A DNA stretch of 64,000 nt from NCBI GenBank assembly GCA_015059945.1, contig SUZJ01000007.1:1-64000 (forward strand), in the 5' to 3' direction. A program made the translations under genes and the position numbers. Shown piece after piece: positions 10,257-30,740 of this stretch. The notes below the pieces were generated by a model, which was given only the letters and a program-made list of their open reading frames with translations, searched no databases and had not been told where the DNA came from. This stretch comes from Rikenellaceae bacterium. GTDB lineage: Bacteria; Bacteroidota; Bacteroidia; Bacteroidales; Rikenellaceae. Position 1 is the stretch's first letter. Each line of letters begins with the position of its first letter.

Positions 10257-10835
10257 ATGAAGCCCCCTCAGAACATATTTTACGCAAGCGACCGCAACGA
10301 GTGGCGCAGGTGGTTAGCGGCCCACTATGAGGTCGAGAGCGAGGTGTGGTTTGTATTTCCCACCAAGGCCTCGGGCGAGCCTGCACTGGCCTATAACGAT
10401 GCCGTGGAGGAGGCTCTCTGCTTTGGGTGGATAGACAGCACTGCCCGAGAGCTCGACGAACTTCACCAACTGCGTCGTTTCACCCCTCGTCGCAAGGGTA
10501 GCCCCTACTCGCGCCCCAATATCGAGCGACTGATATGGCTCAATAGCCAGGGCAAACTTCACCCATCGGTGCGCGAGGCCGTTCTGCCCATCATCAGCGA
10601 GCCTTACCGATTTCCCGACGACATAATCGAGGCCCTGAGTGAGCATCCTGCGGCTTGGGAGTTCTACTCTACCCTTTCGCCCTCTTACTGCCGCATACGC
10701 ATTGCCTATATCGATGCAGCTCGCCACCGTCCTGCCGAGTTTGCCAAACGCCTTGCCCACTTTATCGCCAAGTGCAGCAAGCGCCAACTAATCATTGGCT
10801 ATGGCGGTGTAGACAAGTACTACAACAAGCAATAA
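10257..10835 (+). CDS. YdeI/OmpD-associated family protein
   Basis: 192 residues from ATG 10257. The block YNDAVEEALCFGWIDSTARELDE (about residues 47-69) is the hallmark of YdeI-like proteins (bacteriocin-protection/OmpD-associated family), with the Trp-Ile-Asp-Ser core, followed by RRFTPRRKGSPYSRPNIERL. No signal peptide. The family is linked to stress and envelope resistance in a few bacteria, but the molecular role is unclear. It lies 8 bases after the methyltransferase gene, so they form a two-gene operon, closed by a hairpin at 10836-10872. Confidence 0.85.
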   Translation: MKPPQNIFYASDRNEWRRWLAAHYEVESEVWFVFPTKASGEPALAYNDAVEEALCFGWIDSTARELDELHQLRRFTPRRKGSPYSRPNIERLIWLNSQGKLHPSVREAVLPIISEPYRFPDDIIEALSEHPAAWEFYSTLSPSYCRIRIAYIDAARHRPAEFAKRLAHFIAKCSKRQLIIGYGGVDKYYNKQ

Positions 10836-24161: not shown

Positions 24162-25409
24162 ATGTTAAAGAGAGGCAGATATCGCAAGCTGGCAGCCAAC
24201 ACACTTATAGCCATATTGGTTTCGGTGTTGGTAAACTTTTCATACCTGGTATTTCTGATGGTCAGCAGGCCCAGCTCGCCCCAGTCGGCCGAGCCCGCAA
24301 GGCCCCGTACCGAGCAGGTTGCCACGCCTACGCCACCACCCTCTCCCACCCCCGTAGGTCAGGGCGACGTTTCGCTGCGCCCCGACGACGAGCCCACAGA
24401 GGTAATAGATGCCGACTCGCTCAAAGGGGCCATAATTATCCGCGAGGAGAGTATGACCAAGATGAGCCGCCACCGCTCAAACGAGCAGATGACACAACAG
24501 ATGTGGGCAAGATTTATGGGCATAGAGTTGGTCTATATCTTTGCGGTTGCGCTGGTTATGCTGTCGGTAATGACCGACACCAGACGTCACCGCTACAACA
24601 GTTACTTTCTGCGCCTACTGCTGTGCGTGGCACTATTGGTGGTGTTCTTCCTGATTGCTCCACAGCTCACTTGGCGCGGATATATCGTTACGACACTCAA
24701 CTCGGGACACCTATTCTTCAACCCGATGTCGATACTCAAACTGGCTGCAACATTCTTGGTAGCCATACTCTACGGCAAGATTTACGAGCTGCTCTACAAA
24801 AAGCAAGAGATGGAGGTCGAGAACGAAAGACTCAAAAATGAGAGCCTCACTTGGCAGTACAACACACTTGTAAACCAAGTAAACCCCCACTTCCTGTTCA
24901 ACTCGCTCAACTCGCTCGCAATGCTCGTGCGCGAAGGCGACACTCAGGCGGCGCAAACCTACATAGACCGTATGAGCCAAACCTATCGATACATCATCAG
25001 CGACGGCAACAACGAGCTGACCACCGTAACCGACGAGTTGCAGTTTGTCGATGCCTACCGCTACTTGTTGGAGGTGCGCTATGCGGGCAAGTTGCACATC
25101 AATATCGAGGTGCCCGAGGCCTACTACGCCTACACCCTCCCCGCCCTTTCAATCCAGCCACTCATCGAGAACGCCGTTAAGCACAACACCATCACCACTG
25201 CCCAACCGATGGACATAACCATCAGCGCCAGCGAGGGCCATATTGTTGTGAGCAACCCCATAAGGCCCAAGATTGAGCCCGAAAAGGGCACCGGCATTGG
25301 CCTGGCCAACCTGGCCAACCGCTATGAGCTTATCTGCGGCAGCAAGATTGTGGTCGAGCAGACCGAGGGCAACTTTGTTGTAAAACTGCCCATCCGACAG
25401 CCCAAATAG
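24162..25409 (+). CDS. sensor histidine kinase, LytS/YehU type
   Basis: 415 residues. First membrane helix at about 12-34 (TLIAILVSVLVNFSYLVFLMV), followed by a proline-rich stretch (about 36-68) and an acidic segment, then three more helices (about 118-138, 150-167 and 186-202). The coiled linker KKQEMEVENERLKNESLTWQYN leads to the kinase. The phospho-accepting His lies in VNPHFLFNSLNSL near residue 243, the N box is SIQPLIENAVKH and the G box is GTGIGLANLANRYEL. It pairs with the LytTR regulator starting 44 bases downstream. The long proline-rich loop could be the sensing or spacer part. Confidence 0.93.
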   Translation: MLKRGRYRKLAANTLIAILVSVLVNFSYLVFLMVSRPSSPQSAEPARPRTEQVATPTPPPSPTPVGQGDVSLRPDDEPTEVIDADSLKGAIIIREESMTKMSRHRSNEQMTQQMWARFMGIELVYIFAVALVMLSVMTDTRRHRYNSYFLRLLLCVALLVVFFLIAPQLTWRGYIVTTLNSGHLFFNPMSILKLAATFLVAILYGKIYELLYKKQEMEVENERLKNESLTWQYNTLVNQVNPHFLFNSLNSLAMLVREGDTQAAQTYIDRMSQTYRYIISDGNNELTTVTDELQFVDAYRYLLEVRYAGKLHINIEVPEAYYAYTLPALSIQPLIENAVKHNTITTAQPMDITISASEGHIVVSNPIRPKIEPEKGTGIGLANLANRYELICGSKIVVEQTEGNFVVKLPIRQPK

Positions 25410-25453: not shown

Positions 25454-26212
25454 ATGAAGGCACTAATCATAGAAGATGAGACCGCTGCTGCACGCAACCT
25501 AAAGATGTTACTCGCCAGCGCCTACCCCCAGATTGACGTCATTGGCACCATCGAGAGTGTGGCCGAGGCGGTGGAGTGGTTTTCGACCTACCCCACCCCC
25601 GACTTGGTCTTTATGGACATACACTTGGCCGACGGCAACTCGTTCCGCATCTTCGACAGCACAAGGATTGAGTGCCCCATCATATTCACTACGGCCTACG
25701 ACCAGTATGCCCTCGAAGCATTCAGGGTAAACAGCATCGACTACCTGCTCAAACCCATCAAGCAGAGCGACTTGGAGCGAGCCGTGGGTAAACTTATGGC
25801 CCTGACGCAGAGCGCTGTGAGCGACTACACCAACCGCACCCGCGAGATGGTCGAGAAGGCCACTGCAAGCGCCAAGAGCAGCACCACCCTACTGGTGCAG
25901 GTGAGGGACAAGATTATACCCATTGCGACCGACGAGGTGGCCTATTTCTATACGAGCAACGAACAGGTTTCGGTTACCACGCTCGACGGCAAGTGTTACC
26001 CTATCGACGGCACCTTGGAGGGACACTATGGGGCGCTGTCTGCCGACCAGTTTTTCCGCGCCAATAGGCAATTTATCGTAGCTCGCAGGGCCATAAAGGA
26101 TATGTCGGTGTGGTTTGGCAGCCGCTTGGCGGTAAACCTCACTATCGACACCCCCGAGCGCATCATAGTCAGCAAGGCCCGCACCTCCGAGTTCAAGGCG
26201 TGGCTGCAATAG
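25454..26212 (+). CDS. LytTR-family response regulator
   Basis: 252 residues. The receiver domain begins MKALIIEDETAAARNLKMLLA (acidic pocket Glu-Asp), with the phospho-acceptor Asp in DLVFMDIHLADG and the switch Thr and Lys in IIFTTAYDQYALEAF and DYLLKPIKQ. The C-terminal LytTR DNA-binding domain starts near residue 150 (LLVQVRDKIIPIATDEVAYFYTSNEQVSVTTLDGKCYPIDGTLE...FFRANRQFIVARRAI). It binds direct-repeat DNA sites as a dimer. Partner of the kinase just upstream; the targets are not known. Confidence 0.95.
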   Translation: MKALIIEDETAAARNLKMLLASAYPQIDVIGTIESVAEAVEWFSTYPTPDLVFMDIHLADGNSFRIFDSTRIECPIIFTTAYDQYALEAFRVNSIDYLLKPIKQSDLERAVGKLMALTQSAVSDYTNRTREMVEKATASAKSSTTLLVQVRDKIIPIATDEVAYFYTSNEQVSVTTLDGKCYPIDGTLEGHYGALSADQFFRANRQFIVARRAIKDMSVWFGSRLAVNLTIDTPERIIVSKARTSEFKAWLQ

Positions 26213-26687: not shown

Positions 26688-29558
26688 TTATCTTCTGTGC
26701 CCGCCACCTGGGCCCATTGGTCTACCACCACCGGGGCCACCCATCAGGTTGTCGAAATCTTTGGCCGACGAGCCCTTGCCGAACATACGGATATTGTAGA
26801 CAAACTGCACAGCCACATAGCGGCCAATGGCCAAGTTGTTGGTGATCTGCACATAGTTTGGACCTACCGAGCGGTGGAAGTCGCGATTCTGGTCAAAAAT
26901 ATCGTTTACACCTATGCTCAACTCGCCCCTCTGGTCTTTGAAAATCTTCTTACCAACATAGGCGTTGCAGAGCAAGAACTCCTGATTGTAGTCGTCGGTC
27001 AGACCGCGATACTGGTTATAGGTGGCATTTGCCGTGAGGGTAAAGCCTCTCCAAGCCACCCACTTGAGCTCGCCTCGGGCGTTTTGGCTAAAGTACTTGT
27101 TGTACTGGTTGGTCAGCTCCGACCTATTGTCGTTGATGTTGTACGACAGGTTGTAGCTAACCGAGAAGTCGAGGTTTTCGCTAATGTTGCTGCTCACCTG
27201 CAAGCCTCCCGAGTAGTACTGGCCATTCATCACGTTCAGGTAGTCGTTAATCATACTGGGCGACTGCGACAGACCTGCGTTGACATGCAGGTTGAAGTTG
27301 CTCTTCAACGCTGTCAGCGGGAAGCCGAAGTGGAAGCCAGTGTAGAGGTTCCAGTTGTTGTTGCCCGTATGGTTGATATACTGGCTGTAAGTATTACCCA
27401 CACCCAGAGGCTCATCTAAGCCGGGGACTACAAAGTCGGGCCTATTCATCTGCATCGACGAGATAATCGAGCGGCTATTGACCGTTCCACCCAGGTAGAC
27501 CATAAAGGTACGACCATTCTGAATGTCGGCATAGTTGTAGTTCAGATTCAGATTGTGGGTATAGCTGGGCTTCAAGTCGGGGTTACCTGCCGTAAAGCTG
27601 CTACCGCTCACATCTATTGCATCCTGCAACTGGCGAATCGAGGGGTTGGAGGTGTTCGAGCGGAACCTAACCCTCATCGAGTGCTGCTTGTTAAAGTTAA
27701 TCGTAGCGTTGCCGTTGTAGGTCAGGTTGCTGAAGTTGTAGCTTGGCTCGGCACCCTGAGGCAGTATCTGCTTCGACGAGAGTGTCGAATACTGATAGTT
27801 GAGCCTTACGGAGAACTTTACCTTCTCGGTCGAGAGGTTGTAGCCTGGGCCAACCTTGTGTTTGATGTAGCCACTCTCCGAAACATTGCTCAACAGCAAG
27901 CCCTGCGCCTCGTCCAAGACATCGTTTATCCACACATCGGTCAGCTTGTTCTGGTCGCTCATCTGGTGCGAGAACTCATATTCGAGGTCAATCTGCTGCT
28001 GCTCGTTGATGGGCTCGGTGTAGGTTACCTCGCCACGAATGGTGCGGCTGCCCGAGCGATTTTCGATATGACGCACATAGGTCGAGTCGCTGGGTACTGT
28101 AAAGAGGTAGTATGGGTCGTTCTGCGAGCGAGTGTCGTTCCAGTTGAAGCGGCCATTGACGGTAATAGTCCTACCTGGCTTGCCCAAGCGCGAGCGGTAG
28201 AGGGCAAAGATGTTGCCATAGGTACCAAAGCGATCGTCTGTGCCGGTCTGCTGCAACTGCTTAATAACCTCACCCGTAAGACCATTTGCGGTGGTCTGGT
28301 GGCTTATAAGCTCATTCTCGTAGTCCTGCAAGCTAACACCTGCACGCAGCATCAGCGACTGAGTTTTGCTAAACTTGTAGTCGGCACGCAGGTTCAAGCG
28401 GTGGTTCCAGTTGCCACTCTCGCTATCGGTGCGATAGGCCGACTGCTCGGTATAGTCATCACTTGCGTAGGTTGTACGGTCGCTGGTGTGCTCGTTCACG
28501 GTGCCCGAATGGTTGAAGAAGTAGCTGCTCTGCAACTCCAACTTGTTCCACTGGTTGGCGTAGTTTACGCCCACCGACTGAACGGTCGAGATACCGCCCA
28601 TAGGCCTAACCATAAAGTTACGGGCCATACCCATACCTCTCATACCGCCGCCACCGCCCGACTGGGCAATAGCACCCGACGAGGTTGCGCCAACGATGTC
28701 CTCGAACGAGAAGTTGAGCTGGTTGATATTGTTGGCCATAGCGATTACCGAAATCTTCTGGTCGCCATTGAACATATTGATGTTGCCACCCACCGAGTAT
28801 TTGTCGGGAATACCATAGCTTGCATATACCTTACCGAACTGGCCTTTGCGCTTGCCGAGCGAGGTAACAATGTTGATAGCCTTGTAGCCCTCGCCATCGT
28901 CGAGGCCCGTAAACTCGGCCTTGTCGCTCAACTTGTCGTATACCTCTACTTTGGCAATCATCTCGGCAGGGATGGTCTTGATGGTGGTCGAAACATCCTC
29001 GCCAAAGAACTCCTTGCCATCGACAAAGATTTTCTGTACGGTTTCGCCCTGAGCATCTACCGAGCCGTCGTTATTGACCGTAATACCTGGCATCTTAGCC
29101 AACAGGCCCTCGGCCGAAGCATCCTTGGCGGTCTTGAAGGCCGAGGCATTGTAGCTAACGGTGTCGCCCTTCTGTGAGGTGGCCATATAGCCCTTGACGT
29201 CGATATTCTCGATAACCTTTGCATCGGGCAGGTACTTGATAACGCCAAGCCTAACCTGTTTGCCCTCGGTAACTTTTATCTCGGTCTCGTGCTCTTTGTA
29301 GCCCAAGTAGTTAATCTTGACCGTGTAGGTTGCAGGGACCACGTTTTTAATCTCAATAGCACCCTGATAGCCCGTAGTATAGTAACTTCTCTTCTCGGTT
29401 GCCTTGTCGATAAGCTCAACAACGGCACCATTTATGCCTTCGCCCGTAGCTGCATCTTTCAGTGTGCCTACAATGCTACCTCCCTTGCCACTGGTCTGAC
29501 CAAAGGCCACGAGTGTAGTTGCCACGAGCAGGCATAATGTCAAAAAGTATCTCCTCAT
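26688..29558 (-). CDS. TonB-dependent-receptor-like outer-membrane beta-barrel protein
   Basis: 956 residues with signal peptide MRRYFLTLCLLVATTLVAFGQ. Residues about 28-112 form a carboxypeptidase-regulatory-like domain (GSIVGTLKDAATGEGINGAVVELIDK...YTVKINYLGYKEHE). A plug-like region follows (KGYMATSQKGDTVSYNASAFK...EGLLAKMPGITVNNDGSVDAQGETVQKIFVDGKEFFGEDV), then a long beta barrel of the OMP_b-brl_3 type. It ends in a Gly/Pro-rich tail (GGPGGGRPMGPGGGHRR). No TonB box is evident. It is transcribed with the Cys-rich lipoprotein 59 bases upstream, which suggests a shared envelope role. Confidence 0.88.
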   Translation of the reverse strand: MRRYFLTLCLLVATTLVAFGQTSGKGGSIVGTLKDAATGEGINGAVVELIDKATEKRSYYTTGYQGAIEIKNVVPATYTVKINYLGYKEHETEIKVTEGKQVRLGVIKYLPDAKVIENIDVKGYMATSQKGDTVSYNASAFKTAKDASAEGLLAKMPGITVNNDGSVDAQGETVQKIFVDGKEFFGEDVSTTIKTIPAEMIAKVEVYDKLSDKAEFTGLDDGEGYKAINIVTSLGKRKGQFGKVYASYGIPDKYSVGGNINMFNGDQKISVIAMANNINQLNFSFEDIVGATSSGAIAQSGGGGGMRGMGMARNFMVRPMGGISTVQSVGVNYANQWNKLELQSSYFFNHSGTVNEHTSDRTTYASDDYTEQSAYRTDSESGNWNHRLNLRADYKFSKTQSLMLRAGVSLQDYENELISHQTTANGLTGEVIKQLQQTGTDDRFGTYGNIFALYRSRLGKPGRTITVNGRFNWNDTRSQNDPYYLFTVPSDSTYVRHIENRSGSRTIRGEVTYTEPINEQQQIDLEYEFSHQMSDQNKLTDVWINDVLDEAQGLLLSNVSESGYIKHKVGPGYNLSTEKVKFSVRLNYQYSTLSSKQILPQGAEPSYNFSNLTYNGNATINFNKQHSMRVRFRSNTSNPSIRQLQDAIDVSGSSFTAGNPDLKPSYTHNLNLNYNYADIQNGRTFMVYLGGTVNSRSIISSMQMNRPDFVVPGLDEPLGVGNTYSQYINHTGNNNWNLYTGFHFGFPLTALKSNFNLHVNAGLSQSPSMINDYLNVMNGQYYSGGLQVSSNISENLDFSVSYNLSYNINDNRSELTNQYNKYFSQNARGELKWVAWRGFTLTANATYNQYRGLTDDYNQEFLLCNAYVGKKIFKDQRGELSIGVNDIFDQNRDFHRSVGPNYVQITNNLAIGRYVAVQFVYNIRMFGKGSSAKDFDNLMGGPGGGRPMGPGGGHRR

Positions 29559-29617: not shown

Positions 29618-30589
29618 CTATTTATTGTCGGTGTTCTGTGTGGGGCGGCACTGTGGAGCCTGCTGGGGCACACCACGGCGCTCTTTGCGCTCCATCATTT
29701 TGGTTTTGAGAATCTGCTGCTGCTCGGGGGTGAGAATGGCGCTCAGTTTCTCGAAGAATGCTTTGCGCTCTGCGGGATTAACCATATGACGGGGGTGACG
29801 GGGGTGAGCAGGTTTCTCTACCTGGGGTTTGTGACCTTTGGGGCACTTATCGCACTCTGCCTTCTTGTCGCAAGCGGCCTTCTTGCAATCCGATTTTTTC
29901 TCGCAATTTGCTTTCTTATCGCAATTTGCTTTATCACAAGCGGCTTTCTTGTCGCAGTTGGCTTTTTTGCACTCAGCCTTTTTGTCGCAGTTTGCCTTGT
30001 CGCAAGCAGCCTTTTTGTCGCAGTTTGCCTTGTCGCAAGCAGCCTTTTTCTCGCAGTTAGCTTTGCCACACTCTGCTTTTTTGCAGTCAGCTTTTTTCTC
30101 GCAAGCGGTTTTTTTGCACTCAGCTTTCTTGGGGCAATCAGCTTTTTTGCAATCTACCTTCTTATCGCAAGCGGCCTTTTTCTCGCAGTTTGCTTTATCA
30201 CAAGCACCTTTGGGGCATTCTGCCTTTTTGCACTCAGCTTTCTTGTCGCAAGCACCTTTGGGGCAGTCGGCTTTTTTGTCGCAGTTTGCCTTGTCGCACT
30301 CGGGTTTACCTTTGGGGCAGTCGGCCTTCTTGGCATCCTCGGGGCGTTTGTGGTCAAAGCCCTCTTTCTTCATCTGCTTGATAGCTTTCTGAATCTGTTT
30401 GCCCTGTTCGAGGTAGAGGGCATAAACCTCTTTCTCCTGTGCATCAGTCAGCTCTACAACTTCGTCGAGGCGCTCGGTCTTACCCTCGGCATACTCCTTC
30501 ACGTTAAACTTGCAATCATTCTGGGCCGAGCAAGCGACCATTGCAAATGCGGCCACGAGGCCAAGCATCCATTTTGCACTCTTTTTCAT
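29618..30589 (-). CDS. Cys/Lys-repeat lipoprotein with Spy/CpxP-like (LTxxQ) ends
   Basis: 323 residues. Signal peptide with lipobox FAMVAC (Cys20). Residues about 47-75 (LTDAQEKEVYALYLEQGKQIQKAIKQ) and about 286-305 (LTPEQQQILKTKMMERKERR) carry LTxxQ motifs of the Spy/CpxP periplasmic chaperone type. Between them, residues about 91-249 are a run of roughly 30 Cys residues spaced alternately 5 and 6 apart, with Lys, Asp/Glu and Ala filling (CDKKAACDKANCDKK...), followed by HPRHPRH. The repeat could bind metal ions, thiol-reactive compounds or heavy metals. It sits directly upstream of the beta-barrel gene. No described family fits the repeat. Confidence 0.8.
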   Translation of the reverse strand: MKKSAKWMLGLVAAFAMVACSAQNDCKFNVKEYAEGKTERLDEVVELTDAQEKEVYALYLEQGKQIQKAIKQMKKEGFDHKRPEDAKKADCPKGKPECDKANCDKKADCPKGACDKKAECKKAECPKGACDKANCEKKAACDKKVDCKKADCPKKAECKKTACEKKADCKKAECGKANCEKKAACDKANCDKKAACDKANCDKKAECKKANCDKKAACDKANCDKKANCEKKSDCKKAACDKKAECDKCPKGHKPQVEKPAHPRHPRHMVNPAERKAFFEKLSAILTPEQQQILKTKMMERKERRGVPQQAPQCRPTQNTDNK

Positions 30590-30667: not shown

Positions 30668-30675
30668 CAAAAGTA
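30668..30675 (-). promoter_or_regulatory. -7 element TACTTTTG of the Cys-repeat lipoprotein
   Basis: Minus-strand TACTTTTG matches TAnnTTTG, 78 bases upstream of the ATG. The expected -33 box is not clear, consistent with an activator-dependent promoter. Confidence 0.55.
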
Positions 30676-30704: not shown

Positions 30705-30740
30705 AAGGGGTGAAACGACAAAAACAAGGGGTGAAACGAC
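30705..30740. promoter_or_regulatory. two 15-bp direct repeats with 21-bp period upstream of the Cys-repeat lipoprotein
   Basis: AAGGGGTGAAACGAC occurs at 30705-30719 and again identically at 30726-30740. The centre-to-centre distance is two helical turns, the arrangement used by LytTR-type activators. It lies about 30-65 bases upstream of the -7 element. Confidence 0.65.

Follow-up and report, generated by a model that had tools for sequence, protein, structure and literature searches.

A Spy-like lipoprotein with a cysteine-lysine repeat, a possible thiol sponge in the envelope of a gut Bacteroidales genus

Introduction

What might an exported protein do with about thirty evenly spaced cysteines? 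The question is raised by a lipoprotein gene in a stretch of 64,000 nucleotides from a Rikenellaceae bacterium (assembly GCA_015059945.1, contig SUZJ01000007.1, positions 1 to 64,000), hereafter called the window. The original prediction described a lipoprotein with a Cys/Lys repeat between two Spy/CpxP-like motifs, encoded beside a beta-barrel gene, and offered metal binding, thiol buffering or a protective layer as its role. Here we analyze the gene, its orthologues, its control region and its neighbors, and weigh the readings that they allow.

Results

The gene encodes a lipoprotein with two predicted helical hairpins

The features of the gene are as follows.
29618..30589, minus strand: Spy/LTxxQ-like lipoprotein with a Cys-Lys repeat, 323 aa (open reading frame, orthologues, pN/pS)
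30362..30532, minus strand: N-terminal part with a predicted helix-LTDAQ-helix hairpin, residues 20-76 (AlphaFold; LTXXQ over the cut-off in orthologue L054)
29843..30319, minus strand: Cys-Lys repeat, residues 91-249 (159 aa), with 30 Cys, 49 Lys and net charge +19, predicted to be disordered
29678..29776, minus strand: predicted C-terminal helix-LTPEQ-helix hairpin, residues 272-304 (AlphaFold; weak match to CpxP 3itf)

The gene at 29618-30589 is real. Within a 44-codon N-terminal block compared across six orthologues, the sense frame has a pN/pS of 0.28, and the antisense frame that holds a 275-aa plus-strand open reading frame has one of 1.02; the two remaining antisense frames give 0.49 and 1.87, and both contain stops. 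Because of the difference between 0.28 and 1.02, the minus-strand sense frame is the coding one, as judged from these substitution patterns. The 275-aa reading frame is taken as a shadow of the sense frame.

The protein contains 33 Cys and 73 Lys in total. Its Cys20 lies in a lipobox-like place and is the same in all seven aligned orthologues, in agreement with the predicted lipoprotein nature. Surface lipoproteins of Bacteroidetes carry K-(D/E)2 or acidic-run export motifs, according to PMC5080379. No such motif (K-(D/E)2, or the acidic-run/SDDDD type) follows the lipid cysteine in six orthologues, where positions +2 to +6 read SAQND in the window and SAQDK, AQNEC, ASKNE, NAKCD and SCGQK in the others; we note that the published motifs come from other genera and that the one used by Tidjanibacter may differ. 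The lipoprotein is probably on the periplasmic face.

Two LTxxQ motifs, LTDAQ at residue 47 and LTPEQ at residue 286, each fall within a predicted helical hairpin, as expected from the proposed LTxxQ-type ends. The helices span residues 30-45 and 49-76 in the N-terminal hairpin and 272-285 and 288-304 in the C-terminal one, with block means of pLDDT of 83-93 across residues 31-70 and 271-300. The first motif reads LDDAQ in three of the six other orthologues with an N-terminus. The window protein scores 13.2 bits against LTXXQ (PF07813), for which the curated cut-off is 24.3, and is below the Pfam cut-off for Metal_resist too; only L054 (33.4 bits) passes the LTXXQ cut-off among seven proteins (window and L052-L057). 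At E values up to 1, LTXXQ is found in four of six members and Metal_resist in four of six, and the NCBIfam models for CpxP (E 0.002) and ZraP (E 0.023) match one member each. Sequence profiles of the C-terminal hairpin give a weak match to CpxP 3itf (E 0.024) and a still weaker one to Spy (0.68). The N-terminal block is also common to a Cys-free Flavobacteriales protein (L059), roughly 119 aa long when counted from the first Met. Together, these comparisons suggest a weak to moderate resemblance of the hairpin ends to the Spy/CpxP/ZraP/Metal_resist group.

The repeat is predicted to be a flexible chain

Between the hairpins, 27 of the 29 Cys-Cys intervals in residues 91-249 are 5 or 6 (one is 7, one is 3, none is 2), which confirms the Cys/Lys repeat; in 10,000 composition-preserving shuffles the number of such intervals averaged 4.4 and reached 13 at most. 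Cys makes up about 19% of this chain, with one CxxC, no CxC, no His or Met, and a single residue among FWYILMV. Tandem DNA repeats are present within the coding region of the repeat. No model in Pfam or NCBIfam fits it, in keeping with the view that the repeat matches no described family.

The ordered rod first envisaged, either helical or extended and with regularly placed thiols, is not supported by these data, since the cysteine registers differ among orthologues and AlphaFold predicts residues 77-269 with pLDDT below 50 and a single helix of four residues. The model was built on seven aligned orthologues and is mostly disordered (whole-model mean pLDDT 47.4, pTM 0.34); fold searches gave no guidance as to a Spy cradle-like dimer. 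The sequences and the model speak for a flexible thiol/lysine chain rather than a rod.

Cysteine density is kept while cysteine positions shift

The seven loci with named records come from Tidjanibacter MAGs obtained from the gut of cattle, sheep, goat, yak and water deer. The genus of the window is apparently also Tidjanibacter, because the proteins of L052-L057 are the same as in six genus genomes. Orthologues match in 9 of 23 genus genomes; the other 14, which include incomplete ones, yield none, so the Cys gene is not a core need. Among 100 relatives (own genome included), 11 genomes match: the nine just named plus G045 and G059, which belong to the same family and match in the N-terminal part alone, with no Cys repeat. 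Contig ends truncate the gene in G014, G019 and G022.

The registers vary by orthologue, with interval patterns of 5/6, 6/6/4, 6/5/4/3 and 5/5/6. Across nine sequences (two partial, one cut), 190 of 195 intervals fall within 3-7, with five above 7, where the repeat block is the longest run of cysteines at most 12 apart, so that longer gaps, such as an interval of 19 in G014, could not enter the count. Lys stands two residues after Cys in 179 of 195 cases, and the net charge of the chain ranges from +4 to +19 in the same nine sequences. A lack of conserved cysteine positions among homologues had been named in advance as evidence against the original prediction; exact positions are indeed not conserved, whereas Cys density and the Cys-x-Lys unit are, and therefore a thiol function survives as a reading.

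Within each of the nine proteins, pN/pS among repeat units is 0.13-0.44, and pS between units within orthologues is 0.42-0.84. The units were cut at Cys, so pN/pS does not test the cysteines themselves, which the interval counts do. Copy number changes fast, as seen between L053 and L055. The retained density and the low pN/pS point to selection maintaining a flexible chain of thiols and lysines.

The thiols may be largely free

DsbA (PF01323), DsbB and VKOR have no match in any of the 23 genus genomes (completeness 90% or more in 11 of them), with the same families matched in 8, 6 and 3 of 14 controls, respectively. Because of this, free thiols seem likelier, although thioredoxin-like families, unknown enzymes or non-enzymatic oxidation could still oxidize them. 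A protective layer, if read as disulfide-linked, becomes less likely for the same reason. The number of non-lipid Cys is even in five of six complete orthologues (32, 38, 26, 30 and 26) and odd in L052 (39), a mild hint of pairing in a set that includes two close relatives.

A paired promoter element and an adjacent two-component system

The control region and the neighboring genes contain the following features.
30707..30740, minus strand: promoter element with two identical 13-bp copies of GTCGTTTCACCCC (30728-30740 and 30707-30719), a proposed LytTR site
30668..30675, minus strand: TACTTTTG, which fits the Bacteroidetes -7 box TAnnTTTG
26688..29558, minus strand: downstream gene for an outer membrane beta-barrel protein (OMP_b-brl_3, TonB-receptor-like; Pfam E 1.2e-23)
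24162..25409, plus strand: sensor histidine kinase (His_kinase PF06580; Pfam)
25454..26212, plus strand: LytTR response regulator (Pfam)

Upstream of the Cys gene, the copies of GTCGTTTCACCCC repeat with a period of 21 bp. They are followed by TACTTTTG and a leader of about 78 bases. The motif TAnnTTTG, the Bacteroidetes -7 box consensus, is kept in all seven aligned loci, yet the window has many copies of it (39 and 32 on the two strands). Searched with a strict pattern, 8 of the 23 genus genomes contain the pair, each at a single place, and a reversed-pattern control gives none. All eight carry the Cys gene, and the pair always precedes it; the ninth carrier, G019, is cut on the 5' side. A relaxed pattern (control 0) extends the count to 12 of 23 genomes, adding G003, G006, G008 and G012. 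The element precedes the barrel gene in G003, G006 and G012, and the contig of G008 ends soon past the element. The element and the barrel thus occur without the Cys gene, and where the Cys gene is present it sits between the two. Where the barrel directly follows the regulator, as in six genomes, neither pattern finds the element.

Single half elements have four matches in the window (at most two mismatches) against a mean expectation of 1.29, and 3 of 100 shuffles have at least four; half elements are not specific, and therefore the pair is the meaningful unit. A lone, unpaired exact copy of the 13-bp half element lies at 10474-10486. A canonical LytTR site consists of two 9-bp direct repeats separated by 10-13 bp (PMC11347149). 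With two 13-bp copies at a period of 21, the element has this geometry and is likely a LytTR operator, as a candidate to which the regulator would bind.

The Cys gene accompanies one branch of the barrel family

The barrel gene begins 59 bases after the Cys gene, in accordance with the neighbor that had been predicted, and we infer that the two are co-transcribed. In all 8 genomes where both genes can be seen, the Cys gene immediately precedes the barrel on the same strand. In five named loci (L052-L056), the order on one strand is kinase, LytTR regulator, Cys-lipoprotein and barrel; Pfam was applied to the pair in the window, and the kinases and regulators of the named loci were identified by likeness. 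L057 ends within the Cys gene, and L058 contains kinase and regulator followed by the start of the Cys gene. The lipoprotein-barrel pair of the window is inverted relative to kinase and regulator, unlike the five named loci.

In a tree of 21 barrel rows (the G018 row is partial, and the G014 and G010 rows are distant paralogues), the eight barrels with a Cys gene are on one side of a branch with support of 100/100. One change suffices for the Cys gene, and 0 of 500 shuffles are as low. This fits, and does not prove, a single gain of the gene; the tree is unrooted, with some open forks and long branches. A fragment of a close barrel, truncated where the contig ends, is also present in G010. Without a Cys gene, the barrel lies closely behind the regulator in six genomes (G001, G007, G011, G015, G004 and G016, the placement in the last two being read from upstream DNA) and behind a longer leader in G003, G006 and G012. 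The barrel contains a Met/Gly-rich loop and a Met/Gly/His/Arg tail, partly common to barrels without a Cys gene. No known metal or detoxification gene was found among six window neighbors scanned with Pfam.

Discussion

The protein resembles several known systems in part. With Spy, CpxP, ZraP and CnrX (LTXXQ PF07813, Metal_resist PF13801, DUF4890 PF16231), a group that has metal-linked members, it shares export, two helix-LTxxQ-helix hairpins and a likely two-component control; it differs from them in its 159-residue Cys-Lys chain, its lipid anchor and its scores below the curated cut-offs. Like metallothioneins, which form metal clusters through CxC and CxxC, it has a Cys chain of short units, about 19% Cys and almost without hydrophobic residues, whereas its spacing is C-x4/5-C and it is exported and lipid-anchored. 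The periplasmic metal sponges SilE and PcoE are likewise disordered, exported chains rich in metal ligands. SilE uses His/Met motifs for metal, in contrast to Cys/Lys here, and neither sponge has Spy-like hairpins.

We propose, tentatively and at a little less than an even chance, that the protein is a regulated, envelope-stress-type Spy-like lipoprotein whose chain soaks up soft metals and/or thiol-reactive compounds. About 21-36 thiols, set in C-x-K units, would be strung along a flexible chain of positive charge, borne by a lipid-anchored helical scaffold of the Spy/CpxP kind that probably faces the periplasm. The LytTR two-component system would command its production along with that of the barrel protein, and soft metal ions (of the Cu, Zn, Cd, Hg and As type) and/or thiol-reactive compounds would be absorbed at the outer membrane, by analogy with SilE through His/Met and metallothionein through Cys. 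We count in favor of this sponge the Cys density and Cys-x-Lys unit retained despite the change of register, the low pN/pS of the units (0.13-0.44), the predicted disorder of residues 77-269, the Spy/CpxP-like ends, the missing matches to DsbA, DsbB and VKOR, the missing surface-export motif and the once-per-genome element. The control of E. coli zraP by ZraR and of spy by BaeR/CpxR, as given in PMC7657598, is counted on the same side. Against it we count the lack of a metal gene among the six scanned neighbors and of metallothionein-type CxC, the scores below the LTXXQ and Metal_resist cut-offs, the 14 of 23 genomes without a match, the barrels present without the Cys gene and the even Cys counts.

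Alternatively, Cys and Lys together may shield the envelope by trapping reactive compounds from plant feed (quinones, aldehydes and products of tannins), with metal binding incidental. The nearly fixed Lys two residues after Cys (179/195), the positive chain (+4 to +19), the ruminant hosts of the named records and the response of E. coli Spy to tannins are consistent with such a nucleophile sink, which we regard as unlikely; the six scanned neighbors include no detoxification gene. Distinctly unlikely in our view is a role in metal capture for uptake, in which the lipoprotein would hand metal to the TonB-receptor-like barrel, much like SusD/BtuG-type lipoproteins. The constant position directly upstream of the barrel (8/8) and the Met/Gly/His-rich loop and tail of the barrel would suit this role, but genus barrels exist without the Cys gene, Met/Gly-rich loops and tails are present there as well, and the surface-export motif is absent after the lipid cysteine.

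The very high number of cysteines, and a non-lipid Cys count that is even in five of six complete orthologues, also bring to mind the chlamydial Cys-rich outer membrane proteins, which form a disulfide-linked envelope mesh. That a similar mesh stiffens the envelope here is improbable, as DsbA, DsbB and VKOR are unmatched in 23 of 23 genomes where the controls match in 8, 6 and 3 of 14. We give just as little credence to a neutral low-complexity expansion by slippage within a Spy-like linker. Fast copy-number change and tandem DNA repeats point in its direction, but the units have diverged silently (pS 0.42-0.84) with their protein sequence kept, few intervals (5/195) exceed 7, and other exported proteins bear similar chains.

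Those other chains were found across the order. A search of 393 genomes with profile A1 gave 11 matching genomes, own included. G266 (L072:376-1998), from another family, encodes a galactose mutarotase lipoprotein (Aldose_epim E 7.4e-92) with a lipobox-like start and a 166-residue C-terminal C-x-K tail of net charge +18, in which x-K follows 27 of 28 Cys; unlike the window chain, this tail has a nearly strict 6-residue period and sits C-terminally on an enzyme that is not Spy-like. A relative with like C-x-K units is found in G842 (L079), where the next gene is presumably sodium-solute symporter-like, and a differently built tail in G839, and tails of either kind occur in 3 of 13 genomes of that family. 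In G370, also of another family, a DUF4890/Spy-like protein (DUF4890 over the cut-off) has a Cys-rich stretch between Spy-like ends, which differs in its 16 Cys, irregular spacing and Pro-rich linker. The search also turned up small secreted proteins with CDKAAT repeats at L064 and L070 (G416 and G353). Of the other six among the 11, four are Spy-like proteins that are poor in Cys or devoid of it (G025, G197, G202 and G393) and two are doubtful or chance matches (G126 and G234). The C-x-K chains of the order may be related or convergent. A possible but doubtful extension is that chains of this type have arisen repeatedly as an exported envelope material that can be moved between proteins, a cationic, disordered polythiol on unrelated scaffolds (Spy-like lipoproteins, a mutarotase lipoprotein and small secreted proteins) that would act as a thiol buffer or as a metallothionein outside the cytoplasm in anaerobes lacking Dsb-type oxidation.

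If the sponge proposal is true, the lipoprotein would do with Cys, in the envelope of gut anaerobes, what the metal sponges of the His/Met kind do, with one promoter element and one adjacent two-component system as a regulatory handle. It would also show the use of free thiols outside the cytoplasm where no common disulfide-forming enzyme family was found.
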